DNA from: Lineus longissimus
Lineage: Eukaryota > Nemertea > Pilidiophora > Heteronemertea > Lineidae
DNA: 64,000 nt
Reading direction: 5' to 3'
NCBI RefSeq assembly: GCF_910592395.1
Contig: NC_088308.1
Location: 9,193,001 to 9,257,000 of the forward strand
Shown: piece after piece, positions 8,007 through 60,784 of the stretch
Layout of the letters: each line of letters begins with the position of its first letter
How positions within the stretch are numbered: position 1 is the first letter of the stretch
The notes under the pieces: generated by a model
Told to the model about the DNA's origin: nothing
Seen by the model: only the letters and a program-made list of their open reading frames with translations
Database searches by the model: none
Position numbers and translations under genes: made by a program

Positions 8007-8690
8007 GATTCTCAATATAATAACAAATTGAACTGCTCATGCTCGGGCACTGGGGGCGGAGATACAAATCAGAACTCGAACAGGAAGTTGGAAGTTTAAC
8101 TTTCTCGGGCGGTGAAAGTCGAAAAGTTGGCTAAACCGCTGGGCGGTGTCAGTTCCCTTTATATAAGGGCAACTTGAGCGTGGGATTTACCTAGCCATTT
8201 GAAGGCTCAAACAGGTTCAAATAAACACAAAACATTACCACGCATGACATGTAGGGCTTTGCCCACCCCATCCTTCTCTCTGACATGGCACATACCATTG
8301 CATGCCGTGAAAATATATCACATTGACATTTACGATATAGGCCTATAGCCTATACTGAAATACAGAATGAGAATGAAAACCGACAAATATTGACACCCAC
8401 CCCAGGACCGGCTACAGCCGACTTGGATCTTGGTTTTACAATTTCTAGTGGTCGGCTAGGATAATCATTTGCTGCCATAATTAAAATCAGGTCCTATAAG
8501 GTCCGTCATGATGCTGAAAATCATGAAATTGCAACATTTTTGATGACTAATCTGTCTAAATTGATTTGTGTACATTCATGTACAAAATGTGCAGGGTAGT
8601 TGTTGTCCTGGTAGTCGTGTGTAAACATAGTCAGATCATTTCTTATCTTACCGGGAATAAAGGCGCGACCAGCAGGTGCTGCCGCCTGTG
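8007..8690. promoter_or_regulatory. Probable TRAF7 upstream region
   Basis: This lies immediately 5' of the first coding exon on the minus strand. TTTATATAAGG at about 8,157 could be a TATA-like element on either strand, and a TAGGCCTA palindrome sits at 8,338-8,345. No further exon is recognisable. The assignment is positional only. Confidence 0.3.
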
Positions 8691-8880
8691 CTATTATATT
8701 AGACCTAAACGTCGTGACACTTGTGTCTCTGGAAGACAGTTTGTGAGAGTGGTTGCGACATTTCGTGAAAGAAATTTTTTTATGATGGAGTCTTCGAGTG
8801 AGGAACATTACAACCACCTGACCTGGAGTGTCACCAATTCGAAATAATTTTTTACTTTTGTGATACAAGTGCAATACAAA

Positions 8881-10161
8881 TTATGAATTAGTTTTAACAT
8901 GCATGCCCGGCCGCTAACATTGAAGTCTGCTGCATCCCGGTCTTCAAAAAAGAGAGCAATACCAAAAAATTGTTGGTTTTACATTTACCTGACAATTACT
9001 ACCCATTGTTCAAAACTGGTGACACCAACGCTGGCGTTATCTAATGGATTTCAGTTAAGAAAGCCACAACCTATCATCACCAAAATATTTGAAGCATTGA
9101 ATCATGTTGATGGTCACGAGAATTCTATTGAAGAACCAAATATTCATTTCCCCCACTCTACAAAAGTTGAGAAACACGCTTCACACTCAAAGCTTACCAC
9201 TATTATATGTAAAGAGCAAGCTCTAGTGAACTCACACAACTGTTTGACATGGGGGAGCCCCCCAAACCCCCGTCCTTCTGACATATTTAGCCAGTACATT
9301 GTGGGATGAGTCCCCCAAACCCCCTCCCCCGTTCTCTGAAAGTAACAGGTTTTAGTCAGTACATTGGGGGATCGGAAGGCCCCCCAACCCCCCCCCATTG
9401 GACTCTAAAAATAGAATTCCTTGGAGACGCTGAACAATAAGGCCCCATAAAGAAATAGTCCCCGCCCCGGTAGCTGTCTCATATCTGCTTACAGAAGCAG
9501 CTCTTTGTGGTGAAATAATAATTGAATTTTCCACCTGCTAGCCTAAATATTTGTATATGTTTCTTCACCAGTTAGTTAATAACGAATTTTTGTAGCTGAT
9601 ATATTCTTAATTGTTTTAACGCGTTTTTTTGGATTCGTTTGGCGCCAATATCAAGAATGGCAAATTTACGATCTTGACACTAGAGGCGCTGATGTCGTTC
9701 CGGAACGGTAGATGCTAAATCGGATAGCCAGGCGGTACGGGAACTCCTGCACTCTGACCACGTGACCTACATCATTACTTCACAGTTCCGCACTGGGTCG
9801 AGTTTGGCAGTTACTAGAAATCACGTGACTGGATCTGGATTTAGAAGTGTTAAAACTGACTTTTTTGAAGTAATGTGCGTAAATCGAGAAGAAGAGGACG
9901 TTTGCTTTGTCTGCAATGAAATGTCACAACTGTTTCCGCCGACGTTGTCCTGTATGTCCTAACAGACGATTTTTGAATACATGATGTCCCACACCCGCAC
10001 TTCAGTGGCGCCGGTGTGAATAAATCTACTTGTGTGAATGGTCAATGGCTTATGACGTCATGAAATAATTGCGTCACGTGGAAGGAAACAATGGAAATCA
10101 CGTCCGACGTGGTAACTGTGGGTGCGGTGCGTCGTGAATGCAGGATCGGCCAACGCGCGGC
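8881..10161. repeat. Interspersed repeat block with hairpin triad (copy 1 flank)
   Basis: From about 9,208 (TATGTAAAGAGCAAGCTC) to about 10,135 the sequence matches 38,729-39,720, 41,437-40,750 (inverted), 42,966-43,640 and 44,069-44,970 in shared parts. It includes three G/C hairpins at 9,249-9,399. No coding function is seen. Confidence 0.75.
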
Positions 10162-11134
10162 TATGGCAAGCCAAAGCGGAATTTATTCAAGACTTTAGAA
10201 TTACCATTCAAGAAGTTAAATATAAGTTCAAGAAGGAAATATATGTTCAAGACTAAAATATGTTCAACCTTGAATCAAATGTTTTCAACCTTGAATGAAA
10301 TATGTTCAACCTTGAATAAAATATGTTCAACCTTGAATAAAATATGTCCAACCTTGAACAAAATATATTCAACCTTGAACAAAATATATTCAAGACTCAC
10401 GTGACCATATTCAAGACGCACGTGACCACAAAATTGATGACGTAGTTGCTCATGTTTTGATGCTTTACGGACTTTCCCGAACCCGCGTCCAGACTTTCCC
10501 GAACCCATGGTACTTGTGTTGCGTTTCGGAGCTCGAATTGTTCGCACGAAGGTTTTGACACATGGTTGTACACGTACCTAGCCGCCTACACCTGACATGT
10601 ACTGTAATCCTACACATCATGACATGGATGCCGAGTGAATGTCAGAGTCAATACATGTTTCACAGACATATCAGGCAAATTATAGGTTCAAAATGCGCAA
10701 TGCCTCTCACCTTTCATACCACTGTATCGGATTCTCGTTGTCTTTTGACATGTTTGAGTGTTTAGGCTATACAGGCAATCAATCACGTCGTGAAACAGAA
10801 CGCATCAGAAGTACCACAGATTCTACGCTCTACGTCATCAATTTTGTGGTCACGTGCGTCTTGAATATGGTCACGTGAGTCTTGAATATGGTCACGTGAG
10901 TCTTGAATATATTTTGTTCAAGGTTGAATATATTTTGTTCAAGGTTGGACATATTTTATTCAAGGTTGAACATATTTTATTCAAGGTTGAACATATTTTA
11001 TTTAAGGTTGAAAACATTTGATTCAAGGTTGAACATATTTTAGTCTTGAACATATATTTCCTTCTTGAACTTATATTTAACTTCTTGAATGGTTATTCTA
11101 AAGTCTTGAATAAATTCCGCTTTGGCTTGCCATA
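10162..11134. mobile_element. Foldback transposon with long inverted arms
   Basis: The element begins TATGGCAAGCCAAAGCGGAA and ends in its exact inverse (TTCCGCTTTGGCTTGCCATA). Arms of about 285-305 bp (10,162-10,446 and 10,830-11,134) surround a loop of about 380 bp. Arms contain repeated TTCAACCTTGAA units, themselves nearly palindromic. CGCGGC is duplicated on both sides (10,156-10,161 and 11,135-11,140). Copy 2 has the empty site at about 45,001-45,020. Superfamily uncertain. Confidence 0.92.
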
Positions 11135-11140
11135 CGCGGC

Positions 11141-11986
11141 CCATATGGAATGCGACAAACTGTACCGGAACCAGAATTGTCATGGGTCTGCACTAATTTT
11201 TTTCAGATTCGATGGACATGATGGATATATGATGGATATATGAATTTGAATACAGTGTATACATACGTAACCATTACACTCACTACGTTGTGTGAGTGAT
11301 GATAATGCTCCGAAGCGGTCACAGTCAATGAGGAACCTGCACAACAAAACCTGCCAATAGGGGGCCCTGCAGGTAAGTGGACCGTGGTTGTAATGAGAAA
11401 GCCATTTCCCGGGTCAATGATTATTGATTATTTCATGCCTTAATTATTCTACATGGGGAAATAGCACCGAAAAATGTTGTTTTATTGGTCCTTAATTCTA
11501 TTTTGATGAGTTTTTAGGGAGAAAATCAGCAAAATTAAATTTTAATGGAAAATGCACTGGAAGTGTACCTTTTAGTACTGGTGCTGCCATCTGGATTTTT
11601 AGTTCTGCAGGTTCCTGATTGCGACCCCCTTACTCCCGACCCCAAACATTGTTGTTTAACGATATGTTGCAGTAAAAAAGAAAAATGTCCACAAATTGTT
11701 AAAAATTTTTAGCGAATTTCTGCAAATGCGTGGGCTCGGCCACTGTTTTTAGCTTAGAGATCGTTTAATTTACATGATATATAAATAAGCATCAAATTTG
11801 GGTGGTTCCATGAATTCATGGTTTTGGAACGTACTTACCCAACTAACGCATCTGCGGACAAACATTTGTAAATCGTCTATACTAGTCGTTTTTACATGTA
11901 TAGAGATGACCTCATTTACAACAAATCGATTTTTGTCGAAAAAATTTTGCCAGCCAAAATATTTTTAACAATGCAACCTCGATGTA
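11141..11986. other. Upstream flank of CUB/sushi gene 1, nothing recognised
   Basis: Apart from a repeat-like start (AGATTCGATGGACATGATGG, also at 40,550 and 45,080) I see no gene or element ends here. Confidence 0.4.
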
Positions 11987-12177
11987 CGGAAGCCCATAAG
12001 GGACAGTTTGAATAAAAATGCAATTTGTATTCTCTTCGGAGGTTTTTAACATTTTTGTTTAGTTTTGTTAATATTTTCGAGGTTTCCACCACGGTGAAAC
12101 CAAAAAACCAAAAAGTTAAAACCTCCGAAGAAAATACAAATTGCATTTTTATTCAAAATGGCCCTTATGGGCTTCCG
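11987..12177. mobile_element. Palindromic MITE with TA target duplication, copy 1
   Basis: Ends are CGGAAGCCCATAAGGG and its inverse, with arms of about 85 bp (inner end at AAAACCTCCGAAGA) and TA on both sides. TA duplication suggests a Tc1/mariner-type origin. It lies about 0.9 kb upstream of the gene start and is also in copy 2. Confidence 0.82.
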
Positions 12178-12309
12178 TATAGATGTCAGCTATACACGAT
12201 ATATCAAGGAATTCAAGCGCTCGAAAGACTTCGGGTTAAAACGCATAACAGGTCTCCTTCTGCTTATGATGTACGGTTAAAACTCAGCCTGTCGAAAAAA
12301 GACGAATTT

Positions 12310-12815
12310 GAGGTGTCCCCCATAAGTCCGAGACATCACACAAGTCTGACATCCCACAAGTGCAAAGTATCATGAGACCGACCATGGAAAAATCTTTTTG
12401 AAAATATACCACTTCCGACATTCCACAAGTCCGACATCATAAGTCCGAAGTACCTTAAGTGCGACATCTTATAAAACACAAAAGGGTGATCCCGTAAAAA
12501 AGCCATGCCCAAATTCTGAAGCATGATTTCTTTCACCTGGCGACGATCATTAATGCGAACGTGTCATCTGCTGACAAAATGTCCAGATAACGCAAGTCTT
12601 GCCAACTGTTCCTTAAGCATAATCAAGAGGATATAACGTTATATATTCGACTCGGTCTTCTGTCTTGAACAACTTTTTCGACCATTCATACAACTAGAAA
12701 TATCAGCCTTTTTAAACTTTTGTTCATACAATACATATCTTTCGGACTTATGGTACTTCGGACTTATAGGACGTCAGACTTGTGGGACGTCGGACTTGTG
12801 AGGAGGAATCGAATT
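12310..12815. repeat. Element with repeated AAGTCCGACAT motifs, upstream of gene 1
   Basis: The left part carries AAGTCCGAGACATC, AAGTCTGACATC, AAGTCCGACATCAT and AAGTGCGACATC. The right part carries the same motif inverted (TACTTCGGACTTATAGGACG, ACGTCGGACTTGTG). This subterminal layout suggests a non-autonomous DNA transposon ending about 270 bp before the start codon. It is conserved in copy 2 at about 46,205-46,735. Confidence 0.6.
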
Positions 12816-13084
12816 TCATGTTGGTCCTAGCTAAGGTCCTAGGAGAATTGGGAAGCAATTATCGCCCTGAAATTAACGAACATGATTCAATCTGTCAATC
12901 AGATTACTAGTACATTTCCCAGACAAATCGTCCCAATTATTCTGAAACAATGCTTCTTATCTTATTATGTTACTAGACTGTTGATATTTAACGATTTCGA
13001 CCGGGTATTATTGGTTTCCGCCGCAAACGGAGACTTGCATTTAGGAAGGCAACAACTGGTGGCCGGCGCTCTGCACTGGCTACA

Positions 13085-13157
13085 ATGGCTAAACTTTTGA
13101 TGCAGCTGGCATCAATATGTATGCTTTTGCTCTGTATTTCCCACCGATCTGAGGCAG
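13085..13157 (+). CDS. Gene 1 exon 1: signal peptide
   Basis: It reads MAKLLMQLASICMLLLCISH then RSEA, a hydrophobic core followed by a likely cleavage site after SEA. The donor is GTAAGT, phase 1. Confidence 0.9.
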
Positions 13158-16100
13158 GTAAGTACTACGTATTATACTCTCAAGACTCACTGGTCCGTTT
13201 CTTGATATGCAAGCCAAGCCCCCTTAAAGGGGGACTATAGGCAGGAGCAGAGGGGTTAAATTGGCTGTCTTTAAGCGACTAATATACACAGTAAGGGCAC
13301 GTTGGCATGTTAGACTCAGCGCTACAAATATTCCCCGCGCAAGCGTGAAAAGTTTTGACGTACTGTGAGATGGAAGAGACCTCTATTGGCAACTTTGTGT
13401 AACTTTATCTTGCCTACCTAGCTGCTGCCTATATTATCCCTTTAAGATATTATGCTCATCGTCATTGACTTCAATTCTTTATTCCTTTCTTCATAGTGGT
13501 AGTGACCTACGACACTGCTCGTTCATCTGCCAGTCATGAGTTCTGGACAACGACATGGAACTACACCGTTTCTCCAGGAAGGGACGGAGGAGTCTTCAAA
13601 ATCATGAGACTGAATTTGACGGATTCCTCGCTCATCTTCTTTAATTGGCCCTCTGGAAATACCGTTTGCCCGGACAAAATGGAGGACATTTTACGGGAAG
13701 ATGTCGTTAAGGTGTACGATGAGACCACGAAGATTGGTAGAACGGACCCACCCGACATCTTCCGCGTCCAGTCCGGCAGCGTCTTATGTTTCATGAAGTT
13801 GGAGCGCAAACGGTATGGGGACCGTGGCGAGTTTGTGTACATTCACAAAGGTAATTAGTGGATTTGGAATGATCATTCTTTCCAAGAACACCATTTCACG
13901 GCATAGTCTAATCTATTCACTAGATAAAGAAATTTACTTCGCAACGTGTACAATTTCACCACTGTACTCAGTAAGGCAAAGGTGGTGCAACTGACTACAA
14001 GTCTGTAAAATATCCAGTTGAACCAACTTTCTTGTCATATAGTTGTTTTATTCTAAAACTCAGTGTAACTACAATGTACATGTACACGTTGATGCCGATT
14101 ACATAACGAAAATGTTATGCAATCTCATTCCTAACATCAAGAATTCATAACGACTAGTCTTTATGAACTCTTGCCTACATGAATGTTTATGATTCGAATT
14201 GTCTTTCTTCTGACATCATGCTGAAAACTGCATTAAATTTGGTCCATCATTTGCCGAGACATCGTAAGTAGTTTGTGTTGATATCAGCGTTAGCCAGACA
14301 GGCTGAACTAATAACCTCATATCAAGTCGCCATTGATAGGTGTTATGCCCTATTTTAGATAAGTGGGTAACTTTATTCTGAACAAATTTCCGGTGGTTAA
14401 ATCTTTGCCAATTTTGTAAAGGTTACAGTCAATTGGAATAGGTACTTACAAGTGCAATGTAGAACACTTGCAGGTGTGCTGAAACTAATGAATGCACTGT
14501 AAAGGATAATAGCAGAATGTATAAAGTAGTTTAAACATAAGTGATGTTCAATAAATTAGCTCTTTAAGAGCAGTGAATATGGAGGTAAGATGTATGGAGG
14601 AGAAGCTTTGTTTTTGTATGAAAACTGTAAATCAATATACAGTGTACAAAAGTAAAGTTTATTATTCATCATCGTGTCACCATTACTGAAAAGGCCAGCC
14701 AGAATTGGCTTATGAGAATCTCCTTACTTTCAAACTCCTATCTCCAATGCCAGGCATCTGGCGAGAAGGCAGTTTAGCCAACCGGTCGCATTGGAACGAG
14801 CTGCCGCGGACTCGAACATTCGACCTCCGCTCACGAGGCGGACGCATTACGACCACTCGGCCATCGGGATCGAGAAATACTTACTTTGATAAATCGTCAC
14901 CTATTTTAAATCTATGACATTTTTTTTTCAATTTATGAAGATAAAGCGCCACTTTTCAATACACTCTTCATGCAAGCATTAAACTCCATTATCCCCCTCC
15001 CCCACCCCACCAGAAAGAAAAATTGATAAGCCCCCCTTTAGGAGGGGCTCTTAAGATACACGTGTGTGCGGGAGTAGATAATGTAAATGAATGATGAGAA
15101 ATAAAGAGAGTAACTATTGATTGTATATCCTACAAACAATTTTTTTGGGTATTTTTCTGAATTAACTCCGTTGAGTTTACCGATTTCTCCGCGATCTTCC
15201 GGTGGTGGTTGCTATCCCATTGGTTGAAATTAATTTAAATTAATTTAAATCTTCATGGGAATTCGCTACATCATATGCCTAAGAAATTGGCCAATTATAT
15301 TAATATTTTTATCAGAGAAATATCCGTCCTAAATAATGACAGAAAAGGGTGGTTTATTTCAATTTTGTGTCGACATGATCGAGGTCACGTGACATAAAAA
15401 CAAAACAATCGCACACACCCGTCCAAAAAAGGCACTTTAAGAAAAACAAATACGTTTTTCCAGCTTAAAACCACACTGACGACTAAGTTATATTGGTCTA
15501 CTGCCCAAATCTGAAGTATCAAATTGAATCACAAACTAGAACTAGCTCTATTTAGCTATAGTTGCGTGAAAAATTCGGGTGAGCGACGTACATTCTGTAC
15601 CCTAGCGGCCAATAAATAAACTACTTTCAGCCGTCTGCTCCGGTCTCGTTAGGGAGTTTTTCCCAAATGTACGCGATGATGACGTGCCCCATTAACAGGC
15701 CGTAACATCTATTTTAAAATGCCTTTCGAAAACGAATGCATGAGGACAACCCATTTGTGTCGTATATCACTGGAAACGCCCGATTCCCGTGAATAAGGTC
15801 AATCACAATGTATTACATTACCAAAACAAAAATGTGTCGGAAGGAACTATATGGATGGTCCCATCGCACCCCCCCCCCTCCAGCAGTATGACACAGAAGG
15901 GCTAGTTGACTGTCCACCGGGGGGGGGTTTGGGGGAGCTTCCCCCAACGCACTGGTAAAAACCTATGTCGACGGAGGGGGGTTTGGGGGGTGTCCCCCCA
16001 TTGTAACAGCTGTAGTTGTTAGAGCTTGCACTTAACATATGCTCGTAGGGGGGTTCGGGGGAGCTCCCCCGACCTAAAGGGGGGCTCACTAAGTTCTTGA

Positions 16101-19100
16101 CTTTACATATTAAAACGGTCTTATCTCAAGCTCGGCACTCTGCATCGGCTTACTGGACTTTGCGCAACGAAACGAAACGAGCGAAGTGGGGGAGCGACCA
16201 TTATGTTTTACCCCGGTACTCTAGCCTGAAAATTTGTTCGGACCTCGATCGAAGAAGGTACGACAAACAATTAATTAATCAAACCCTGAGGTTCATTCAT
16301 TTGAAGTAGAGAGGGTAACGTACATTGTATACACAAATCAAACACACACGCAGTGCTTGCATGCATTGCAGAGAACGACTTTTGAGTGATGACCCACACC
16401 CACCCAGGCAGCTGAGACACATGTCTTGTTGGACATGCCTGCCGATTTTTACTAAATAAAAGCATAACTTCATCACACTTTTCGGGGTTGAAAATGTACT
16501 CACGTAAATTACCAAAATTACATGCCAAATTCGCACATGACCTGTTATTTCTCAAAGCTTGGAAGCTCAACTGTCTGAATGTAATGTATGCGCGTAATGT
16601 ATACGCTCAGCAAGCGAATAGTTGTGATCGTCGGTTTTTGATACGAATCGTTTCCTGTATGGCCGTTACAAGCCGTTGTCTGAATATGATGTTAACCTGT
16701 TTACCGTTCAATGCTGCTCCCTGTGACGCTGTACCCGCAAATGTTCAATGAAAAAAATGCTTGATAATGACATACACGGCTTGTTCGCATCGTAAACATA
16801 GTGGTACCCGGATAAACTGTCTTTGCGTTTGGCCTAATTTTACAACGATTACTCCCCATGTAACCACGATCTAGGATGGACAGGCTGTGTATTATGAATA
16901 GGAAAAGTCACCTAGGGACCGTTGCGTAGAATACTTTTTTGGCGAAATATTGCGCAAAGTCCAGTAAGCCCTCTGCATCAGACTTTGACAATATCATGTC
17001 GTTATTTGAAAAACGCTCCAGCGCCGTCTCAAATTTTATTAACCTGCATTCGTAGCTCTACTAGTTAATAATATGTAATCTGAGCCTTTTGTAAATGATA
17101 CTGCAATGTCTTTTATGTACATTTGTAAGTGACATTTTTGATAACATCACCGCCTTCGGCGCTCTCTTTTGAGCAACTACACGTACATACATTTTAACAT
17201 ACATGTACTTTGACTATGTTCTATTGTGTTATTAGTGTTTGTTCTCTATGTAGATTTTATATACACGTATTGGTGCTCAATGAAAGTTTTGAAATTGAAA
17301 TTGAAAATTGAAATTGATATCGTTCTAAAAACGGCCACATTTTTAAATGAAATTTTATTGCTAGATTCTTTTTATTGAACGACTCTGGTATAACCACATC
17401 TTGACCCGCAATGTTTTGAGATTGTGGAGCTCGATAGTGCATGGTGACGCAAACGCATAAGAGTCAGGATGGTATAACCAAGTACGATATCCTAACAATT
17501 CGTGTTATTCCTTTTTTTGTAGACAATGGTGCCTCCTCTAGCGCAACAACCAGACACCCAGTGTATTTCAAATACAAGATACAGAACTCGTTCCGATCAG
17601 CATATAAGGAAAGGTGTATGGCTATACCAATTGGCCGCAATGTGGCTTTTGAGATGAATGGAGGTATGAGCGACATAAAATCGTTGAACAACGTTAAAGT
17701 ATTCTACACTGAACGATACAGGTAAAGTACTGGGACAATAGAAGCCAGGATGTAGATTGTAACAAAGATGCCGTTTTTAGTAACGAATCGTCAAATTCTG
17801 TAACACACATGCATAATCATCATTTCGTTGATTGAAAAAAACAACAACCGGCTTGATAATGACAAGAGGTGTCTTGACGGGCCGCCATCCTTACAAATTC
17901 CCAAAATTTAACATAAGGCCTACTCTACTTTCTGTATATTTTCTTTGGCTTAGCCGTGTCCACGTGGGCTTTAATTTGAAAAAGACGAAGGCATATTTTT
18001 AATATTCGAAAAACCTAATACTGTGATTTATCGTGTAAACAAGTTTGTGTCAACAAAAAAATAAATGACAAAAATAGCAAAGACTGTCCACCTTAGCCAG
18101 TGTTGAAAAGATTTTGAAATGCAGTACAATTGTAAATCAATTAAAACGGTTGCTCCGCGCGAACGTTCCAACACACAGTTTGGATACATTTTTCGATTGA
18201 TAATATCAAGAATTTATTAAGACTTATCCCTCTTTATAACTTCTTGGTAGTATAAACCCAATACATGTATCGAGATTGTTGTTGTTTTCCCGCCTGGTCC
18301 TCTGTCGCTTTTTTTTCGTGAAAATTTGTTTTTGGTTCTTTAGTGCTCATTAGCGGAAATCAAGGCTTTTCGTGCAAAACATCTATAAAATTTCGTATTC
18401 ATTGTTAAATCTATACTTTCAAATGGCTCCCCATCAAGCCCATGGTAGGCCTACATCTAAATATCGTAGTATTTTACTGATGCGAACAAAATTAATGTGC
18501 ATGTACATTCGGATCTGGAGATTTCGGCCCTCATAATATATTATAGTATATGGACTGATTTCACAAATGACCGTAAAGCAAGCATTGGCAACCTATGTTT
18601 TCCATTTGTTGCAGCTGGTCGGTCGGAACTTTAGCTGTCGTGTTCCCCGCCTCCTAGATCTGAAAGCGCATGTTGAATAACATTACACTATACATTATGT
18701 CGAGCAAAGAGATTTTTAAGTGACTCGCGAAGACAGGGGCGCTGGTCAGTGTCCGCAAGCTGATTGGCAGTCGGTTCCACAGCTTGGGCCTGGATTTGGC
18801 ACGTAATGCCTTAAAGGAATGGACGGCTTATTATTGCAGTATGTTTGTTCTTCTTCTGGTTCATCCGTAAACTATTTTTCTAAACCTCTCTGATGCTTTT
18901 CCAATTTTGTTTCAGCTCCTAGATAGTAGAAAAACGCGTTATTCGTTATTTTCACTGAGTACGCGCAAGTCCTGGCGCGAAAGACCTTTCCCGTCACATG
19001 AGTGCACGCCGAGATCCGAGTTCACGACACCCCGCTATTAAGACGCAATGTCATTTCCATTTATCGTCGCAGTTGTGGGGTAATCAAGCGCCATCAGCGT

Positions 19101-27600: not shown

Positions 27601-27619
27601 AGACTCTATTTCTCATTTA

Positions 27620-41437: not shown

Positions 41438-41466
41438 GAAATAGTCAATCAGTCACTGGTGTCATG

Positions 41467-42964: not shown

Positions 42965-42965
42965 A

Positions 42966-46072: not shown

Positions 46073-46204
46073 TATAGATGTCTGCTGTACACGATATATC
46101 AAGGAATTCAAGCGTTCGAAAGACTTCGGGTTAAAACGCATAACAGGTCTCCTTCTGCTTATGATGTACGGTTAAAACTCAGCCTGTCGAAAAAAGACGA
46201 ATTT

Positions 46205-46735: not shown

Positions 46736-47008
46736 AATTTCATGTTGGTCCTAGCTAAGGTCCTAGGAGAATTGGGAAGCAATTATCGCCCGGAAATTAA
46801 CGAACATGATTCAATCTGTCAATCAGATTACTAGTACATTTCCCAGACAAATCGTCCCAATTATTCTGAAACAATGCTACTTAACTTATTATGTTACTAG
46901 ACTGTTGATATTTAACGATTTCGACCGGGTATTATTGGTTTCCGCCGCAAACGGAGACTTGCATTTAGGAAGGCAACAACTGGTGGCCGGCGCTCCGCAC
47001 TGGCTACA

Positions 47009-47081
47009 ATGGCTAACCTTTTGATGCAGCTGGCATCAATATGTATGCTTTTGCTCTTCATTTCCCACCGATCTGAGGCAG
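47009..47081 (+). CDS. Gene 2 exon 1: signal peptide
   Basis: MANLLMQLASICMLLLFISH then RSEA; donor GTAAGT, phase 1. Replacements K3N and C17F; the latter needs two base changes. Confidence 0.9.
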
Positions 47082-50000
47082 GTAAGTACTACGTATTATA
47101 TTCTCAAGACTCACTGGTCCGTTTCTTGATATGCAAGCCAAGCCCCCTTAAAGGGGGACTATAGGCAGGAGCAGAGGGGTTAAAGTGGCTGTCTTTAAGC
47201 GACTAATATACACAGTAAGGGCACGTTGGCATGTTAGACTCAGCGCTACAAATATTCCCCGCGCAAGCGTGAAAAGTTTTGACGTACTGTGAGATGGAAG
47301 AGACCTCTATTGGCAACTTTGTGTAACTTTATCTTGCCTACCTAGCTGCTGCCTATATAACCCCTTTAAGATATTATGCTCATCGTCATTGACTTCAATT
47401 CTTTATTCCTTTCTTCATAGAGGTAGTGACCTACGACACTGCTAGTTCATCTACCAGTCATGATTTCTGGACAACGACATGGAACTACACCGTTTCTCCA
47501 GGAAGGGACGGAGGAGTCTTCAAAATCATGAGACTGAATTTGACGGATTCCTCGCTCATCTTCTTTAATTGGCCCTCTGGAAATACCGTTTGCCCGGACA
47601 AAATGGAGGACATTTTACGGGAAGATGTCGTTAAGGTGTACGATGAGACCACGAAGATTGGTAGAACGGACCCACCCGACATCTTCCGCGTCCAGTCCGG
47701 CAGCGTCTTATGTTTCATGAAGTTGGAGCGCAAACGGTATGGGGACCGTGGCGAGTTTGTGTACATTCACAAAGGTAATTAGTGGATTTGGAATGATCAT
47801 TCTTTCCAAGAACACCATTTCACGGCATAGTCTAATCTATTCACTAGATAAAGAAATTTACTTCGCAACGTTGATGCCGATTACATAACGAAAATGTTAT
47901 GCAATCTCATTCCTAACATCAAGAATTCATAACGACTAGTCTTTATGAACTCTTGCCTACATGAATGTTTATGATTCGAATTGTCTTTCTTCTGACATCA
48001 TGCTGAAAACTGCATTAAATTTGGTCCATCATTTGCCGAGACATCGTAAGAAGTTTGTGTTGATATCATCATGAGCCAGACAGGCTGAACTAATAACCTC
48101 ATATGAAGTCGCCATTGATAGATGTTATGCCCTATTTTAGATAAGTGGGTAACTTAATGCTGAACAAATTTCCGGTGGCTAAATCTTTGCCAATTTTGTA
48201 AAGGTTACAGTGCAAAGTTCTTGAACTTGTAGTTAGGTGGCGCTGGACTGCCGCCATAGAAAGACGAGATTACACGAAATACTTGGTTAGAAAGTCGACT
48301 TATGAGCACTGATGTACAACCACCCTGATGCTGCAAGCACGACAAACGTGCTTTCCAACAAGCGGGGCCGAATGTAAAAAGAAAGAGTGAAATTCGCTCT
48401 CAATGAACTACAGTACATGTAATAGTAATCGCTCTTTGAGATAACAGAAAAGCGAAACGTCGATAATCTTCCCCTTTGGTGATTATGAAATAATTGTAAT
48501 GATTCACGTAGAACACTTGCAGGTGTGCTGAAACTAATGAATGCACTGTAAAAGATAATAGCAGAATGTATAAAGTAGACATAAGTGACGTTCAATAAAT
48601 CAGCTCTTTAAGAGCAGTGAATATGGAGGTAAGATATATGGAGGAGAAGCTTTGTTTTTGTATGAAAACTGTAAATCAATATACACTGTACAAAAGTACA
48701 GTTTACTATTTATCATCGTGTCACCATTACTGAAAGGCCAGCCAGAATTGGCTTATGAGAATCTCCTTACTTCCAAACTCCTATCTCCAATGCCAGGCAT
48801 CTGGCGAGAAGGCAGTTTAGCCAACCGGTCGCATTGGAACGAGCTGCCGCGGACTCGAACACTCGACCTCCGCTCACGAGGCGGACGCATTACGACCACC
48901 CGGCCATCGGGATCGAGAAATACTTACTTTTTTGATAAATCGTCACCTATTTTAAATCTATGGCATTTTTTTTCTTCAATTTATGAAGATAAAGCGCCAC
49001 TTTTCAATACACTCTTCATGCAAGCATTAAACTCCATTATCCCCCTCCCCCACCCCATCAGAAAGAAAAATTGATAAAACGGTCTTATCTCAAGCTCGGC
49101 ACTCTGCATCAGACTTTGACAATATCATGTCGTTATTTGAAAAACGCTCCAGCGCCGTCTCAAATTTTATTAACCTGCATTCGTTGCTCTACTAGTTAAT
49201 AATATGTAATCTGAGCCTTTTGTAAATGATACTGCAATGTCTTTTATGTACATTTGTAAGTGACATTTTTGATAACATCACCGCCTTCGGCGCTCTCTTT
49301 TGAGCAACTACACGTACATGCATTTTAATATACTTTGACTATGTTCTAATGTGTTATTAGTGTTTGTTCTCTATGTAGATTTTATATACATGTATTGGTG
49401 CTCAATGAAAGTTTTGAAATTGAAATTGAAAATTGAAATTGGTATCGTTCTAAAAACGGCCACATTTTTAGATGAAATTTTATTGCTAGATTCTTTTTAT
49501 TGAAAGACTCTGGTATAACCACATCTTGACCCGCAATGTTTTGAGATTGTGGAGCTCGATAGTGCATGGTGACGCAAACGCATAAGAGTCAGGATGGTAT
49601 AACCAAGTACGATACCCTAACAATTCGTGTTATTCCTTTTTTTGTAGACAATGGTGCCTCCTCTAGCGCAACGACCAGACACCCAGTGTATTTCAAATAC
49701 AAGATACAGTACTCGTTCCGATCAGCATATAAGGAAAGGTGTATGGCTATACCAAGTGGCCGCAATGTGGCTTTTGAGATGAATGGAGGTATGAGCGACA
49801 TAAAATCGTTGAACAACGTTAAAGTATTCTACACTGAACGATACAGGTAAAGTACTGGGACAATAGAAGCCAGGATGTAGATTGTAACAAAGATGCCGTT
49901 TTTAGTAACGAATCGTCAAATTCTGTAACACACATATATAATCATCATTTCGTTGATTGAAAAAAACAACAACCGGCTTGATAATGACAAGAGGTGTCTT

Positions 50001-53000
50001 GACGGGCCGCCATCCTTACAAATTCCCAAAATTTAACATAAGGCCTACTCTACTTTCTGTATATTTTCTTTGGCTTAGCCGTGTCCACGTGGGCTTTAAT
50101 TTGAAAAAGACGAAGGCATATTTTTAATATTCGAAAAATCTAATACTGTGATTTATCGTGTAAACAAGTTTGTGTCAACAAAAAAATAAATGACAAAAAT
50201 AGCAAAGACTGTCCACCTTAGCCAGTGTTGAAAAGATTTTGAAATGCAGTACAATTGTAAATCAATTAAAACGGTTGCTCCGCGCGAACGTTCCAACACA
50301 CAGTTTGGATACATTTTTCGATTGATAATATCAAGAATTTATTAAGACTTATCCCTCTTTATAACTTCTTGGTAGTATAAACCCAATACATGTATCGAGA
50401 TTGTTGTTGTTTTCCCGCCTGGTCCTCTGTCGCTTTTTTTTTCGTGAAAATTTGTTTTTGGTTCTTTAGTGCTCATTAGCGGAAATCAAGGCTTTTCGTG
50501 CAAAACATCTATAAAATTTCGTATTCATTGTTAAATCTATACTTTCAAATGGCTCCCCATCAAGCCCATGGTAGGCCTACATCTAAATATCGTAGTATTT
50601 TACTGATGCGAACAAAATTAATGTGCATGTACATTCGGATCTGGAGATTTCGGCCCTCATAATATATTATAGTATATGGACTGATTTCACAAATGACCGT
50701 AAAGCAAGCATTGGCAACCTATGTTTTCCATTTGTTGCAGCTGGTCGGTCGGAACTTTAGCTGTCGTGTTCCCCGCCTCCTAGATCTGAAAGCGCATGTT
50801 GAATAACATTACACTATACATTATGTCGAGCAAAGAGATTTTTAAGTGACTCGCGAAGACAGGGGCGCTGGTCAGTGTCCGCAAGCTGATTGGCAGTCGG
50901 TTCCACAGCTTGGGCCTGGATTTGGCACGTAATGCCTTAAAGGAATGGACGGCTTATTATTGCAGTATGTTTGTTCTTCTTCTGGTTCATCCGTAAACTA
51001 TTTTTCTAAACCTCTCTGATGCTTTTCCAATTTTGTTTCAGCTCCTAGATAGTAGAAAAACGCGTTATTCGTTATTTTCACTGAGTACGCGCAAGTCCTG
51101 GCGCGAAAGACCTTTCCCGTCACATGAGTGCACGCCGAGATCCGAGTTCACGACACCCCGCTATTAAGACGCAATGTCATTTCCATTTATCGTCGCAGTT
51201 GTGGGGTAATCAAGCGCCATCAGCGTGACGTCGGAAAAATCGATGTCAGCACCAAGACCTTACTCCAGGAAACGTTTTACTAGTGCATCGTTCCACGTGG
51301 AAAGGGTCGATGCATGGAGAGCTAACTCGGGTCAAATCAGAGTCAATAGAGAGGTAAGATTTTGATCCGAGAACAATAACGAGGTTTTTTTCTCTGTTTG
51401 GCGTCATCAAGGCAAACTGTTGTTTTTCATTATCATTTTTAGGCATACCAGGCATGATAAACACACTGTGGTTTCATTTCATTTCTGACAACAGGCAATA
51501 CGGTATCTATCGTCAAATTGCCACCTCGTTCTCGGACCAAAATCTTACATCTCTGTTTTCGGAAAAGTGCGATAATTCAGTCAGATTTTGAATTTTTCCT
51601 TTTTTTGTGCAATTTGTTGATGGAAGCTACATGTGTAGAATAGGAGGTGACAGGGCAGCCAACAGCTGGCTAATATTGCCCTTAATAATGCCAATGGTCA
51701 TTTAAATTTAGGAGTTTGACTCTCCTTTGAATGCCGACTTATCGGCGGTGAATATCACTCCTAAAATCTTCTCCTTTCACCGCCGATAACTCCCGCCAGG
51801 TAATCTGTCGGACGCACCATCATAAACGGGTGGCCAATCTAATTGCTCGACACAAAGTAATTGAATGACGGCCTGAATCGGCGGTGAAGGATGGATATAC
51901 GCACAACGACGGTGGATCGGCATGCTCCTTTGTGACTTCTTAACTTTCAAACAGTCAAATAATTGCAAGAAGATGGCTAATTGATTTCAGGTCCGGAAGG
52001 AGATCGGGCGAGCTGCACACTCTTATCCATCTGACGAGTAGAACGCCGGCGTCCTCTTATAAACGTCTTCACGTCCTTCCAACGGGCTATAGAAGAGAGC
52101 CAGAGAGAATTTGCTTCGCATATGAAGTGATCAACGGAACAAGGGAGGATTTCAAAGACAATGTCACTTTTCTCATCACAGGTATGTATACAATGTACTT
52201 TGTATTCATAAATTACTAATGTATAAAGTTTATTAATTCTATATCTGAGTAAATATTCAAAGGATCTTACTCATGGAATATATGAAGAATGTAAGTACTT
52301 TCATAGGAACACATTTTCAAGCCATTATGTCCTCGAATGTGTTCCAGGTTTCACTGACTTATACACTTAATGCTACATGAACTATCACCATGCCATGTGC
52401 ATTGACTGTCAACTTATAAAAAGGCACTTGGGTACAAGGTGGTTCTGGGCCTCCCTGTAGAACTACCATGTTTATATACACGTATTCATAAATTCAACAC
52501 GATTCAACAAGTACATTGTGTATGTGCAATTTTGAATACAAGCACGAGAAAATCCCATCAACAAGATATATACTATAGTATATCGTGTGACCATGAAAAT
52601 GTATTATAACGAAATGCTCGACATCTTTACACAATTAACATTTGATTGAGCAATAAGGTAGATTTTGACAACAAGCACAGCCGTTTTGATCAGGGACAAA
52701 GGCTTTGGGGTCGAGGTAACCAAATACGTGTAACATAAACCAGTGTGGGGATTCGGACAGTGTCAGCAAGTCACTGTCAACTATGGTTACCATAGCACTA
52801 GCAGACGACAAAAACAAATTTGAAAACTCGAAATTTGAAATAATTCCTGTTCTATGGCACTCGACGTGGATTTGTTGGTAGATATTTCAAGATGATAACG
52901 TTAACACATCAGTTAATAGGTTCGTATCGGTGTAGCTGTCCTGAATAAATAGAAAACAGTGTTTTTGAAGTCCTATGCTTAATTCAGGGTACAAATTGCG

Positions 53001-56000
53001 TTTTTCTACCATATCTTCAGAAGTTGTGAAGATTATTGCATGTGCTGTGTTGTGTAGCCTGTACTTCCAGACTTAAATGCAATATGAGATGGCAGAGTGT
53101 CCGGTATGGTTATTTTCATGCACTGCCACGACTCTCCGTTATGGTTACACTTGTACAGTCATGACAGTGACACAGGTAACCATAGCGGACAGTCTGCCTT
53201 CTTTTTAATTGCATTTTGAGACACTTTATAGAACACTTTGAGCCAGGTGCTTGCCATCATATCTTCCTTTTCTGGTATGCTTCACAACACATCACATGCA
53301 ATAATCTTCACAACTCTTTGGCAGAAATGGGAGAATAAGCGCCTTTTGTAGCCTGAAGTAGGCATTGGTCTACCAAAATACTGCTTTTTCTACTTATTCT
53401 AGACAGCTACATCAAAATCTACCAACAGATGTCTTTAAGTTATCGTCCAAAAATATCTACCAGCAAACGTCATAGAACAGGAATCATTCGTTGTTGAATC
53501 TCCCGGAGTTTGTCGTCTGTTAGCGATGTTGTAACCATAGTGGACAGTGACTTGCTGACACTGTCCGAATCCCCACGCACTGTAAACGACTGACTCTGAC
53601 ATTATTCCTCTCTTCTAGTATTCAGAATGTGCAGTATGAATATGACCGAACCAAGTGGGTTACTCACCACTCAGAACTACCCCGACCCGCTTTATAACCG
53701 TGCTAACTGTACTACTCACATCACGGCACTGCCTGGTCAGAGGATTTCCCTGTCATTTCTGGACGCGAAAATCGACTGCAACCACGGCTACGTCATGCTC
53801 CGTTCCCAGAACAGACCTGCGGTAATGCTGTGCGGGGGTTCTCTGAAGGCCAATGCCAGCTATTTAAGCGAGTCCAACACGCTTTCTCTTCAAGTGAGGA
53901 ACAAAGGACGTCAAGCGACGGATAGGGGCTATTTCGTCAAATACAAAGGTATGTACAGTCCTGGAAAAAGAGATCGACATATTCAAACATTTTCTTTGTT
54001 TAGAAATGATGATAATCTCGGCTTGTACATCACTTAGCACACTAAATCGCCTGATACTTTCAACCAAATAATTCCACATTACGGTGTACGTCATTCTGAC
54101 CATTACCTCGTAATTGCAGCACACTATAAGCCGCCAACTTCGGCGTTCACAGGCGTTTTTTGCCGCAAGAGTCCTAAACGCCTGAAAAATCCATAGTCTG
54201 CTACGAACGGCGTCGGCGAACGCGACTTGACTGACGCCATTTGCCGCAACTAAACGCCAAATATCTAACATGTTTGATTTTTGACGCGTGTCGCCGCGCT
54301 TGAACGCAAGAAGAAGCCAGGTGTGCTACTACGGATGGCCGCCTGACTTGGCGTCGGCGGCGAGGCTATGGCCAATCAGCTTGCGTCTTGATGTCACATG
54401 ATTTTAAAATGGCGGAAAAGACGCTACTGGACGCCAATTCTGGGCAGGTGTGCTCTGACCGGGATCCACTGGCCGCCAACTTTGGCGTCAAGTGGCGTCA
54501 GCCGAACGCTTCTTGTCGCCAAAGTTGGCGGCTAGTATGCTGCAGGCTTTATCAAGGCGTTGGCAGGGTAAATCTTGATGATATGAACCCTATGAAACAG
54601 CTTTCATGAGTGTCGATAAGCCTGAGCTGGCATTGTCAAATACACGTAATCAATCATGTATATACGATCGATAATCAAGCCAAAACCACGAGTATACCAT
54701 CCCATCATTTCTGCGTGTCTAATACGAGATAAATTCGATGCATAGATTCGGCATCCCTACAGATTTACAGATGACAGATTTTACGTGAGGTCAAGACGCT
54801 GATACAGAACTCGATCGAAATCCGAAAAAAACTGAGATCTTGGGTTTATAGTCACTGTGATGATGCGATGCATTTTATTCATATACATATAAGAAATTCA
54901 GACTGAATAATAATTATCAACACCACATACTGTAACTTGTTATATCATAATCCATTGTTCGTAAGTGTTGCATGTATGTTCGCATCGTTCGGGTCGCCGG
55001 AGAGGGAACTATTGGACGGATTTCTTTGAAATTTAGTTTTCATTGGTCTACACCGAACAACAAACAGTTTATGTAAGTAACCGTGGTACCATTTATGTAC
55101 ATTGACGTAGAGCATTGAATTCGGACATTTTCCGCTCTGTACGCTTTATGTCTTGATTATTCTGGATGAATTGTGAAACGTAAAGAGGGCTGACTTGTCC
55201 CGTACGCGGATTAGATCGTTGTGATATTCTGGATGAATTGTTCAGGTTATTATTTTTTTGGTCAATCTATACTCATGTGCCAAGAATGAATGACAAATAT
55301 CCAGAAACAAAATATAGCCTATCCAGGGGACCCTCAAAATGACCATTGGACTTGGCTGAAGAATTTGTTTTATATCTGCCTCGAGAATGCTGAACCTTAA
55401 ACTCCTGTTTGGTTTTGAGGCAAGGATCAACAGAAACCAAACTTCAAATAAATCGGACCAGTATTTCACATTTAACATTTATGAATAGACTATAACTAGA
55501 TGCTTTTGTATCCACTGCCATTTGATCTGTTTCAGCCATTGGATGTGGCATTCGGGACGCCATACTTCCGCCTCATTCGCGGATACTGAATGACAACGTG
55601 GGCTTCATCCACACACATTTCAAGATGAGGGTCGGGTGTGAGCATGGTTACGTATTTCCTACTCTGGAAAGAGAGATCACACTAGAATGTAGAGAAAACA
55701 GAACCTGGGATAGGCACGTGCCAATTTGCGTTGGTGAGTACGGGCAGAAGCTAGGACTGAAATGGTTATTATACACATAGTTCTCAATTAATTGTCTTAG
55801 TTTTCCTGCAGAAAATACAATGTATAATATATACTATGCCATGCTTTGACATTCCAGTTAAGTTGTATTCAATAGCCGCTTTAATCACACAATTTTACCT
55901 TAGACGAATTCTTATTTCAAAGCAAACACCTGTATTACACGAGATATCCGTAAGCTTTCGAAAAAAGACCCCCATGCACGCGCCCCGCGTCCCGCTTCTC

Positions 56001-58650
56001 ACCCACCTTAGTCTATGCACAAGCGGTCAAACTTGCTTGGACATCCGCCATTTTCTTATCATATTACTTCACACCCTACCAAGTGTGAAGGGGTTAACGT
56101 TAACGACTAATACCGAATTCATACTTCGACTCGTGACCATCGGCGTCCGACGCGCGATCAAACTCTTGAATGAGCCTCGTTCTTTATACGTGGTTTCAGC
56201 CACTTCAACTGCTGGACCCCCCGGCGGATCATGCCGTAAGCAAAAGCACAGAGACCTGCCCCCATGAGCCCTTCCTGAGCGACCCGAGCCGATATATACT
56301 ATTGCTAACGAAACTTTTGATTCTAGAGGTCGTTAAGAATCGGGTTTTGTACGATAAGAGAAGGCCAGATCATAAAAGAACCGATTTTAAAGAGGACGCA
56401 TGGAAAATGATAGGAAAATGAATTGGAACAGAGGGAAACCATATTTGGCCTTCAAAACGCCTCCCGCAGCGTTTCATGCGTTAGGTGTGACTCCTTTATC
56501 TGGACCGAAACCGTTGCGTTTTCCGCTGCGTTCAACGCGAGTTTTTTCTGTGAAGGGGCGTCCAGATTATGATCGCGCGTCGGATGCCAATAGGACAGTA
56601 TTAGCTCATAAAAAATCTTGCCGATCTTTGCATGGATACATTTCTCACTTGGAAGTTATTTGTTTTCTATTTTTCCAGAGCATTCGTTTTGCAACAAAAC
56701 ATTGACTGCTTCGAACGGCACCATCGAAAGTCCATCGTATCCGAACGCATTCCCGAAGGATACTACTTGCGAGTGGAAGATCCAGGTAAAGAAAGGTCAG
56801 AACATAAAAGTGACAGTCGTCGATTTGAGTGCATTCTGTAAAGATAACTTTCTGCTCATCGACTCGGCGGCAAAAGGGTCTACGGATGGTCGGTATCACA
56901 GGTACGTCCTGTGCAGTAACGGCGGCGACTACGTGAGTGAAAGCTATTATACGTGGGACAACGAGGTGTCAGTCTTATTCAAGTCAAACTTTTTGAAAGA
57001 TTCCGGATATTTCAGGATCAAGTACGAAGGTAAACAGATTCTATTGCATTTTTGTAAAAGGTTGAAAATAGTCACGGCAATTTTACAGCCTTGGTTTTCT
57101 CAGTTATTGGCGTTAACACATGTTACTGATCATTAAAGGACCATTGGTATAATTGTCGGCTGCCCAGTCTCTTCCTATTCTACATAAAGTAGTTTCCATC
57201 AACAAATTGCACAAAAAAGAAAAAAGAAATTCAAAATCTGACTGAGTTATCACACTTTTCCGATGTTGACTCTGACTTCACCCGAGTTAGCTCTCCGGCC
57301 AGTCCATGCGTCGATCCTTTCCATGTGGAACGAGGCACTAGAAAGGCGCTTCCTGGAGCCATGGATCCACCCTGTGATATCTTGGTGCTGATATAGATTT
57401 TTCCGACGTCACGCTGATGGCGCTTGATTACCCCGCTACTGCTACGATAACGGAAATGACGTTGCGTCGTAATACCGGGGTGACGTGAACTCGGATCTCG
57501 GCGTGCACTCACGTGGCGGGAAAGGTCTTTCGCGCCAGGACTTGTGCGTACTAAAAATAACAAAAGCGCGTTTTTCTACTATCTGAGAGCTGAAACAATT
57601 TTGAAAAAGCATCAAACACGTTAAAAAAACAGTTTATTGATGAACCAGAAGAATAACAAACATACTGCAGTAAAAAGCTGCCCATTCATGGATGTTTGTT
57701 GATATATATTTGCTAGCAGTGCAACTTTATCTACATGTATTTCATCTATTTCTAACGCCAGGCGACGCTACTAGTCAGTCATAATGCTTGCGACATTTAT
57801 GCGCTGCCTACTCGCGCGTTATGTGCATACATTGATGCGTGTATCAATTTTACAGATTGACGCATGTTAATTTAGGCTATGCATGCACAGGGTTTGTTTT
57901 TCGTGTTATGCGTGATAAATACAGTCAGATTTCGAATTTTTCCTTTTTTTGTGCAATTTTGTTGATGGAAACTACATGAACTTATGAAGAATAGGAGGTG
58001 ACTCGGCAGCCGACAGCTGGGTCATATTGTCGATAATAATGCCAATGGTCCTTTAAAGCATTGATCCCCATCATGGTTCTTGGAAAGAACAGCACAGTCC
58101 TTGGGGGAGGAGGAGGGGGGGGGGGGAGAGAATAGGAATCCATGGTGTTCATCAACACAACTCACGCGTGTCTTATGCAAAAAAAGTAACAACAAATGTA
58201 CAAATGTAGTTGTGATCAGGGGAATTGAAACACACATTACTTACACACCATAAGTCACTCTTTGGACACAGTGAATTGCGGAGTATTTTTTCAACAAACT
58301 TCAGGTATTTAAACTAGCTGATGCAAATTCTACGAAAATTACCAGTTATTCCGAAACATGACTAGAGCAAAGGCTTCAAATTGTTGTTGGGTCAAAAATG
58401 TAAAATAAAACATCTTGCATACTCTTTGTCATCTTTTTCAGCAACTGGGTGCAGCATGGAGCAGTTTCCAACCAACAGATACAAAATAATTGAGCACTAC
58501 TCTTTGTACTACGAAGTCGGTTCTAAGCTCAAGTTTGACTGTCCTATCGAGAGTCAGTATTTCTTGGATGGAGAATCGGAGCATTACCTGACTTGTGGGG
58601 CAGATGGAAAATTTAGCGGGACTTTCCCGCTCTGCTCACCGGCAGAGTGA
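47009..58650 (+). CDS. Secreted CUB/sushi-domain protein, copy 2 (eight exons)
   Basis: Same eight-exon structure, phases and 634-residue length as the gene at 13,085-26,529, with every splice dinucleotide intact. By residue, the differences are K3N, C17F, V25E, R33S, A36T, E39D, N164Y, I179S, M212R, I276M, I279M, S351N, I567T and K590E (copy 1 to copy 2), with silent changes at T151 and L343. S351N creates an NAS glycosylation sequon in the canonical CUB. CCP 1 and the last CUB are identical. Introns 2 and 3 are shorter than in copy 1 for want of its transposon insertions. It seems a functional paralogue or, if the assembly kept both haplotypes, an allele. Function unknown beyond extracellular binding modules. 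Confidence 0.9.
47421..47774 (+). CDS. Gene 2 exon 2: CUB-like module 1
   Basis: Four replacements fall in its first 15 codons (V25E, R33S, A36T, E39D); the other 103 codons are identical in nucleotide sequence to copy 1. Confidence 0.87.
48750..48920 (-). mobile_element. tRNA-derived SINE in intron 2, copy 2
   Basis: Counterpart of 14,700-14,880, with the same A and B boxes. Confidence 0.68.
49648..49846 (+). CDS. Gene 2 exon 3: CUB-like module 2, first half
   Basis: Reads DNGASSSATTRHPVYFKYKI with N164Y and I179S and one silent change (T151). Confidence 0.87.
50940..51700. mobile_element. TTAA-flanked element, intron 3 copy 2
   Basis: Counterpart of 18,815-19,575 (offset about 32,125). 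Confidence 0.65.
51991..52181 (+). CDS. Gene 2 exon 4: CUB-like module 2, second half
   Basis: One replacement (M212R); otherwise identical to copy 1. Same phases and junctions. Confidence 0.87.
52741..53582. mobile_element. Foldback element next to exon 5, copy 2
   Basis: Counterpart of 20,616-21,458, again ending 36 bp before exon 5. Confidence 0.84.
53619..53948 (+). CDS. Gene 2 exon 5: canonical CUB module
   Basis: Replacements I276M, I279M and S351N (new sequon), silent change at L343. Confidence 0.95.
54119..54540. mobile_element. MITE with GCCGCCAACTT ends, copy 2
   Basis: Counterpart of 21,995-22,416. Confidence 0.7.
55536..55733 (+). CDS. Gene 2 exon 6: CCP module 1
   Basis: Nucleotide-identical to 23,412-23,609. 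Confidence 0.94.
56679..57029 (+). CDS. Gene 2 exon 7: CUB module
   Basis: Nucleotide-identical to 24,556-24,906 as far as I can compare. Confidence 0.95.
57137..58052. mobile_element. TTAA-flanked element, intron 7 copy 2
   Basis: Counterpart of 25,014-25,929; TTAA at 57,133-57,136 and 58,053-58,056. Confidence 0.84.
58442..58650 (+). CDS. Gene 2 exon 8: CCP module 2 and stop
   Basis: Replacements I567T and K590E; same TGA. Confidence 0.93.
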
Positions 58651-59744
58651 GCTAAACATGAGACGAGAGGTGATACGGTGACAGTGCATGCTTTTATGTA
58701 ATCATTTATGTAAGCAATCAGAGAAGGCTTTTGGTAATGTATATAGCTGAGGAAACCGGAGACACCGAAGGGAAGTTACAATGTCGCCCTATATAAATCA
58801 TCGCATCAGACATATACTCTGGCCGAGAGTTGAACCAAGACCACTAATGTTGCGGCGTTGCGCGGCATTGATGCCAATTTCGAGCATTAATCTTTTAAGT
58901 CTATTAGTGAGGTTTTTGCACCGTTTCGAAAACTGGCAGGGCATCAGCGACGGTCAGAGTATTGTCAATGCACATGTAGATTTACACCATTATGACCGCT
59001 GATGATACCCTGTTTTCAGTGCAAAAACGTCACGAAGTTGACTAACAGACATTTCAAATGCCATACATAAATAATAGGCTCTCATACCATTCATATGTAG
59101 GCCTAGTCAATAGGCCTTACGGACCTGTTGTTTAGACCGGTTTCCTGACCAAAAATCCTACCTAAGAGTTGAATAGTGTGGACTCAGTATACTCAGTGAG
59201 TGCAAAAATATAGTTAATAAATGCAGTTGAAATAATCAAAAGATCAAATTCTGTGATTTTTTTATCTTCATCGACACGTTTTGATACAATGAACGACATG
59301 ATATGCACTCATCACGGTAAAATACTTTCTGTTATTGAGTTAGCTTCAATTCATTTACCGTTGAACTTATCGGATTGCATTTGCCTGGATGATTTCATTA
59401 CATATTCAGTATTCCCTGCAAACAAACTGTGCTGATAATGCTCAATAAAAAATAATTATTTTGAAAAATCAAAAACAAGCTTTTTACACAGTGCTTTAAC
59501 AAGATTACTAACAAACAAATATAGAAATATATAACCACGACCGAATAGTTGAGTGCTCATCTTTGCGACCAATTATGATAAAAATTGAGAATAGATTTGC
59601 ATTGATTTCCCTCCTACAAAAACCGAAGAAGCTAAGTTATTATTGTAGCCAGTATGATGATGAGTCAAGTGCAACACTCTAAAAAGCCCTCAAACTAAAA
59701 CCTGAGTTTCGGCACTTGGAGAGACTCTATTTCTCATTTATCCT

Positions 59745-60784
59745 CCCCCCGTATGGAATATGAAGCCGTAATATTTGATTCAGCAAATGTTAGTACATTG
59801 TCTAGACTTGACCAGATTCATTATAGGGTTGGCCTGATAGTCGGCAGTTGTATTCAAGGTACTGGTGGTAATCAAGTCTATAAATCACTTGACTGGATTA
59901 CACTTTCTCAGAGGCGATATGAGAAAAAATACTTTTTATGTGTGATATAACTCGTTTAAGAGATCCTACCTATGTAATTCCTACTGAATGTTGATAGTTA
60001 TAGAAACCCAGTGTATGATGGAAGACACAGTAATCAGCAACCATCCAGTCTTCGTACAGGAGTATATATCACAAAGATTCACAAAATCCACTTTTCCCAG
60101 TGCAATTAACCTGGCTATCTTTGTCAAAGGGTGTGAGAGACTATTATACAAGAAACTCCTTCGAATTCAACACTTGTGTGTACATGAAAGGGTGGAAAAG
60201 CTACTTGGTGACTACTGAATTGAAACTTTCACGTAGGGAAGAAAATCTTTTCAATAAAACTCGCTGTGATCTCATTATTCAGGAACCACCTGTTTACCCG
60301 TAATTTTTCGAACATTTTTGATCTCCCCTGTCCGCGCGGTTTCAGCAAACATCTTTCTTCAGTTGCCCTAGCTCTTACTCGCACTTGTCCATGACCTATT
60401 AGTGTACTGCCATCTTTTACCACCCAATATGGTTCTCTGCGTGGCACTGAGGACAAGTTGCAGGCCTTACTCTATAGTTTCATTAATTTCACAAAAGCCA
60501 CTAATATCCAGGCTATATGGTTAGCGTCAACAGGTTTATCCACAATATTTGCACTATTGTTAATATAAATTAGTCTCCTTTTATGTTGTTTGGTCCCTTC
60601 CGTTCTTCTGCTTTCCTGCAACTTTTTGTCGTTCTCACTCAGAGCTCCAGTGCAGTTATTCCTGCTTATGCGTCCCTTTAAGCCAATGTAATTTGTAATT
60701 TTACTTCTGTCCAGGGCTGCTAATGCTTGTAAGCAATATCCCTGGGTTTGTTCACATTGGAAGTTATCAATAAAAATCTATATA
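59745..60784 (+). pseudogene. LINE 3' remnant, copy 2
   Basis: Counterpart of 27,620-28,654. Here the tail continues as a longer TATATATA tract before unique sequence starts. Confidence 0.55.

Follow-up and report, generated by a model that had tools for sequence, protein, structure and literature searches.

Is the pair of near-identical genes lying head to tail on chromosome 1 of the ribbon worm Lineus longissimus (Nemertea) a real duplication, and, if so, have the two copies had a single history along their whole length? The window, by which is meant the whole 64,000-nucleotide stretch analysed, is contig C1 9,193,001-9,257,000, and the genome searched with it is a 391-Mb assembly. Self-BLAST of the window gives direct, collinear matches, sharply bounded on the outer sides, from about 8,690/38,334 up to 28,654/60,784, the longest of them pairing 16,968-28,654 with 49,099-60,784. 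The two copies thus have the same orientation, are collinear and lie on one contiguous sequence, which is what characterizes a direct tandem (segmental) duplication.

8690..28654, plus strand: copy 1 of the duplicated block, from self-BLAST, with its left edge at about 8,690
38334..60784, plus strand: copy 2 of the block, in which the parts homologous to copy 1 are 38,334-38,516 and 43,747-60,784
20620-21452 and 52745-53576: intronic inverted-repeat element in both copies, with many dispersed relatives

The block had been put at 20 kb, with a divergence of about 0.9% in coding sequence. The size holds if copy-specific insertions are included, the homologous part being only about 16.8 kb. Six aligned blocks between the inserts comprise 16,848 sites, of which 156 mismatch (0.93%), and contain 21 indel events; the figure of about 0.9% averages two zones that differ threefold (below). 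Because it is present in both copies, the intronic inverted-repeat element probably predates the duplication.

Each copy holds one gene.

13085..26529, plus strand: copy 1 gene, 8 exons, 634 amino acids
13085-13157, 13497-13850, 17523-17721, 19865-20055, 21495-21824, 23412-23609, 24556-24906 and 26321-26529, plus strand: exons of copy 1
47009..58650, plus strand: copy 2 gene, 8 exons, 634 amino acids, with 14 amino-acid differences from copy 1
47009-47081, 47421-47774, 49648-49846, 51991-52181, 53619-53948, 55536-55733, 56679-57029 and 58442-58650, plus strand: exons of copy 2

All seven introns in each copy are GT-AG and both frames run for 634 codons before the stop, in agreement with the original prediction of a direct duplication with two complete genes whose splice sites and full frame are kept, and an exact recount returned the same 17 coding differences. 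Fifteen of these are nonsynonymous (14 amino-acid changes) and two synonymous. The copy 1 model is letter for letter the NCBI/UniRef protein 'CUB and sushi domain-containing protein 1-like [Lineus longissimus]'. Its order is a signal-peptide-like exon, two divergent modules, CUB, sushi, CUB, sushi and then the stop, with residues 4-17 forming, as judged by eye, a hydrophobic stretch. Pfam cut-offs are passed by CUB (84.7 bits, cut-off 21.4) and Sushi (34.1 bits, cut-off 20.7); two stretches of each are found, the weaker sushi only at E<=1, and N-terminal modules 1 and 2 have no Pfam match. The usual ligands of CUB and sushi modules are proteins or carbohydrates outside cells, and on the strength of these domains the product is probably an extracellular binding protein. 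Both copies are probably expressible.

The two copies are separated by 9.7 kb, of which the first 5.9 kb is dispersed transposons and the remainder an array of a 1.1-kb repeat.

28655..31009, plus strand: spacer element 1, a DNA transposon whose broken frames retain Tc5-type and DDE domain remnants
31001..34555, unstranded: spacer element 2, a repeat with 65-bp inverted ends (31011-31075 and 34481-34545) that are 97% complementary
34556..38333, unstranded: spacer element 3, a tandem array of some 3.5 units of the 1.1-kb repeat, stopping at the left edge of copy 2

Element 1 starts at the right edge of copy 1, immediately 3' of a TA. Elsewhere the assembly has 32 places that match it over 2,300 or more of the 2,355 bases, at 93-99% identity, and near the far end of these dispersed copies its initial 28 bases are repeated in inverted orientation. 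The remnants come from two domains, a Tc5-type DNA-binding one and a DDE endonuclease. More copies or parts of element 2 are on contigs C7, C12 and C17. Besides its tandem units in the spacer, the 1.1-kb repeat is present as a lone inverted unit within the second intron of copy 1. Since the spacer consists of dispersed transposons and the 1.1-kb array, the pair probably began as a simple head-to-tail duplication. TA-rich sequence at both edges of the junction would permit a microhomology-type join, which is plausible. Homologous recombination between flanking repeats was considered as a mechanism and set aside, the repeats that fill the spacer not being found at the outer edges.

Within the block itself, six inserts longer than 100 bp are confined to one copy or the other.

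10162..11134, unstranded: copy-1-only 973-bp foldback insert, with a 6-bp target-site duplication, CGCGGC, and an empty site in copy 2
13948..14085, unstranded: copy-1-only 138-bp insert, with a 4-bp target-site duplication, ACGT, and an empty site in copy 2
15030..16113, minus strand: one unit of the 1.1-kb repeat, inverted, lying in intron 2 and confined to copy 1
16147..16970, unstranded: copy-1-only 824-bp element with inverted ends, a 9-bp target-site duplication, CTCTGCATC, and an empty site in copy 2
38517..43746, unstranded: 5.2-kb composite insert confined to copy 2, in which 41468-42916 is a reverse-transcriptase frame
48216..48507, unstranded: copy-2-only 292 bp replacing 26 bp of copy 1, not a clean insertion

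The arms of the foldback insert are about 268 bp and contain 21-bp tandem repeats. Three of the copy 1 inserts have clean target-site duplications (6, 4 and 9 bp) with copy 2 empty, which bears out the expectation of copy-specific insertions. That the copies have had separate histories, as was claimed from them, is right in that insertions are private to each, but the histories may be allelic ones captured at duplication.

Divergence and insertion differences of this kind have an allelic look, and raise the question of an assembly artefact in which two haplotypes of one locus have been laid end to end. False heterotype duplications likewise present two diverged copies of one block within one scaffold. 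In the portion of PMC9516828 available, between 4 and 16% of the sequence of the older assemblies examined consists of such duplications, which are recognized there by half read depth, by gaps (a primary mark), by discordant linked reads and by one-copy k-mers. The same portion describes a real allele-specific tandem duplication at haploid depth, so half-depth coverage alone is compatible with a real duplication. Here, unlike in false heterotype duplications, gap and duplicated flank are absent: no gap separates the copies and no N bases occur in the 184 kb scanned around the pair. The outer flanks share no sequence with the spacer beyond dispersed repeats, nor with their own surroundings, and the spacer has sequence absent from them. 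Within 60 kb on either side there is no third copy. One 121-bp match, at 78%, links the right flank to a neighbouring stretch; for the right flank at 60,760-63,188 no second genomic place is seen among the best 40 of 1,427 candidates, only the repeat beyond it recurring. A 2-kb DNA query against the whole genome finds two near-identical places among its 113 matches (from the best 40 of 391 candidates), the other 111 being at most 95% identical and inside the intron 4 repeat. The assembly itself, according to the available part of PMC8593623, used HiFi reads, hifiasm and purge_dups on sheared DNA averaging 12-20 kb, with a contig N50 of 10 Mb and 0.4% of BUSCO genes duplicated. With contiguous sequence between the copies, non-matching flanks and an assembly made in this way, an artefact appears very unlikely.

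How uniform the divergence is along the block is pertinent to how the pair was formed. In a change-point scan on substitutions the best break is at copy 1 position 17,813, with none of 1,000 permutations as extreme. To its left 100 of 6,011 sites mismatch (1.66%; one of the 100, at 16,970, is probably the final base of an inserted element), and to its right 56 of 10,837 (0.52%).

17813..28654, plus strand: low-divergence zone of copy 1, 0.52% from copy 2, taking in most of intron 3, exons 4-8 and all that follows as far as the right edge

All six of the large copy-specific inserts lie left of the break (P=0.002 under even placement, a value to be read with the break having been picked from the same data, one of the six being a replacement, and insertion-site preference being possible). 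A single averaged divergence should therefore not serve as an age for the pair. Within the left zone, about 590 aligned sites at 13541-14268 are without mismatch (P=0.002). This run spans most of exon 2 and contains the 138-bp copy 1 insert; it may be a small conversion tract or reflect constraint.

An explanation of the mosaic that needs no exchange between the copies is a lower mutation rate or stronger constraint in the right half, where five of the eight exons (4-8) fall. Noncoding sequence there is nonetheless as low in divergence (49 of 9,558) as coding (7 of 1,279), and the drop is abrupt, which leaves this explanation highly improbable. The mosaic fits both later homogenization of the right part and capture of two alleles. 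In the latter case, unequal exchange between two already differing chromosomes would have placed two alleles in tandem, the mosaic and private insertions being old allelic differences and the duplication itself perhaps very young or segregating. Captured alleles with different histories would give an identical mosaic pattern. Allele capture would account for the sharp change point, for where the inserts lie and for coding divergence at a neutral rate, with no need of a long conversion tract; a conversion tract of 10.8 kb is long, which counts against conversion. Allelic differences of the order of 0.5-1.7%, the range found here, are also those of many marine invertebrates. The filling of the junction by repeats, on the other hand, suggests that some time has elapsed since the duplication, and we regard allele capture as possible, if somewhat unlikely.

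The best overall explanation, and one that we consider reasonably probable, is a real head-to-tail duplication with a transposon-filled junction and later homogenization on the right side. On this account an event on chromosome 1 would have duplicated some 17 kb, a unit with a single complete gene for a secreted protein, the TA-rich ends being perhaps united by a microhomology-type join. The junction would then have been filled and widened by transposons, as the make-up of the spacer suggests. Sequence left of 17,813 would retain the older divergence together with all the large insertions, and exons 4-8 with the 3' flank would have been replaced later, for which an exchange between the copies, by gene conversion or crossing-over, is the simplest route. 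Young tandem duplicates of genes that have undergone partial conversion are a known kind in general, with adjacent direct copies, mosaic divergence and copy-specific insertions outside the homogenized part, as here; there is no difference in kind, the particular feature here being that three repeat elements fill the junction. The pair can be taken as a well-delimited case of a ribbon-worm gene pair forming and perhaps partly homogenizing. Searches of the literature found no paper combining CUB and sushi with nemerteans, and for tandem duplication with gene conversion in Lophotrochozoa the match concerned mammalian homeobox genes; nemertean ZP-module proteins are treated in the part of PMC11673550 available.

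Whether both genes are being kept is a separate matter. Coding and noncoding mismatches are 10 of 626 against 90 of 5,385 in the left zone and, as given above, are also alike in the right. The 15 nonsynonymous of 17 changes do not depart from chance (P=0.25; dN 0.0095, dS 0.0073), power being low with 17 changes. With coding and noncoding sequence diverging alike, there is no demonstration of positive selection; the coding rate fits weak constraint. Positive selection on the N-terminal region was considered for exons 1-2, where 7 of 7 changes are nonsynonymous, and rejected, 78% of sites being nonsynonymous in any case, so that such a run is unsurprising. Equality of coding and noncoding divergence in both zones, with the preponderance of nonsynonymous changes, is what would be seen were one copy a neutral duplicate heading for loss and the other alone used. 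That prospect is compatible with any origin of the pair, so that the likelihoods attached to the several readings do not sum to one. Set against it, frames and splice sites are intact in both copies: coding sequence free of constraint should have gathered about 3.4 disabling changes (some 0.8 stops plus 2.7 indels, an expectation derived from the noncoding indel count), and none is seen (P=0.03). Neutral decay of one copy is accordingly quite possible, while still on the doubtful side. The evidence for retention of both copies is weak, and for their diversification there is none.

It had also been suggested that the duplication might seed the expansion of an immune or recognition family. A protein query against the assembly gives 38 matches among the best 70 of 85 candidates, 15 in the two copies, 15 at four other loci and 8 elsewhere; within the same 70, the only close copies of the protein are this pair.

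C1 503.6-509.4 kb: paralog locus, from the genome protein query
C2 25.762-25.770 Mb: paralog locus, from the genome protein query
C13 5.515-5.519 Mb: paralog locus, from the genome protein query, N-terminus incomplete
C13 5.706-5.710 Mb: paralog locus, from the genome protein query, N-terminus incomplete

At all four (splice junctions and ends being approximate) the order is as in the pair: module 1, module 2, CUB, sushi, CUB, sushi. Pfam CUB and Sushi are both matched at E<=0.1 in all five aligned family members. The paralogs are 29-32% identical to copy 1, and the longest branch of the family tree is that between the tandem pair and the other members. Polarizing the 14 amino-acid changes on this tree was tried and dropped, the outgroups being about 30% identical. 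The seed of an expansion is thus not what is found: with four loci at such distances the family is already old, and there is one recent addition here. On the present sequences it appears to be an old and small CUB/sushi family with a single recent tandem addition, and the pair is probably a real, ordinary recent tandem duplicate within it. No feature in this analysis links the gene to immunity. A small CUB/sushi protein family is nevertheless now assembled for a phylum of which few genomes exist. Between them the two C13 loci share 65.5% identity and, at 5.516 and 5.707 Mb, 190 kb apart, constitute an older local duplication within the family. Their second CUB has a threonine-rich inserted loop that the tandem pair lacks; an RSKR stretch in this loop resembles a furin site.

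Against a collection of 5.8 billion proteins, homology queries with the complete protein, with residues 24-280 or with the family alignment found nothing but the protein itself. Lineage restriction is not read from this, because the paralogs in the same genome were likewise not returned; the collection seems to contain few proteins of this type.

Among known systems, CSMD proteins have in common with the pair alternating CUB and sushi modules. As portrayed in the parts of their descriptions available, they are long CUB/sushi arrays with a membrane anchor, whereas the 634-residue proteins here have two CUB and two sushi stretches plus the two N-terminal modules without Pfam match, and stop directly after the second sushi. 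CSMD membership, suggested by the NCBI name 'CSMD1-like', is not supported. Matches in PDB, by sequence and by fold, include the CUB and sushi parts of the proteases MASP, C1r and C1s, the best by sequence being cubilin. Those proteases have a C-terminal serine protease domain, which the pair lacks, its frame ending after the last sushi; an EGF domain likewise has no Pfam match in the protein.

A more far-reaching proposal combines several of these elements. A very young, possibly segregating duplication might have joined two long-diverged alleles of the family's most divergent member, and so fixed allelic diversity of a recognition protein, the N-terminal exons now diverging (all seven changes in exons 1-2 altering an amino acid) and exons 4-8 being kept alike by exchange. 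We hold this to be unlikely.

Outside the duplicated block, the window has WD40-repeat exons on the minus strand at 386-1136 (with a WD40 domain match for 843-1136), presumably of a TRAF7-like gene, and at 1094-1382 a 23-bp minisatellite of 12.6 copies.
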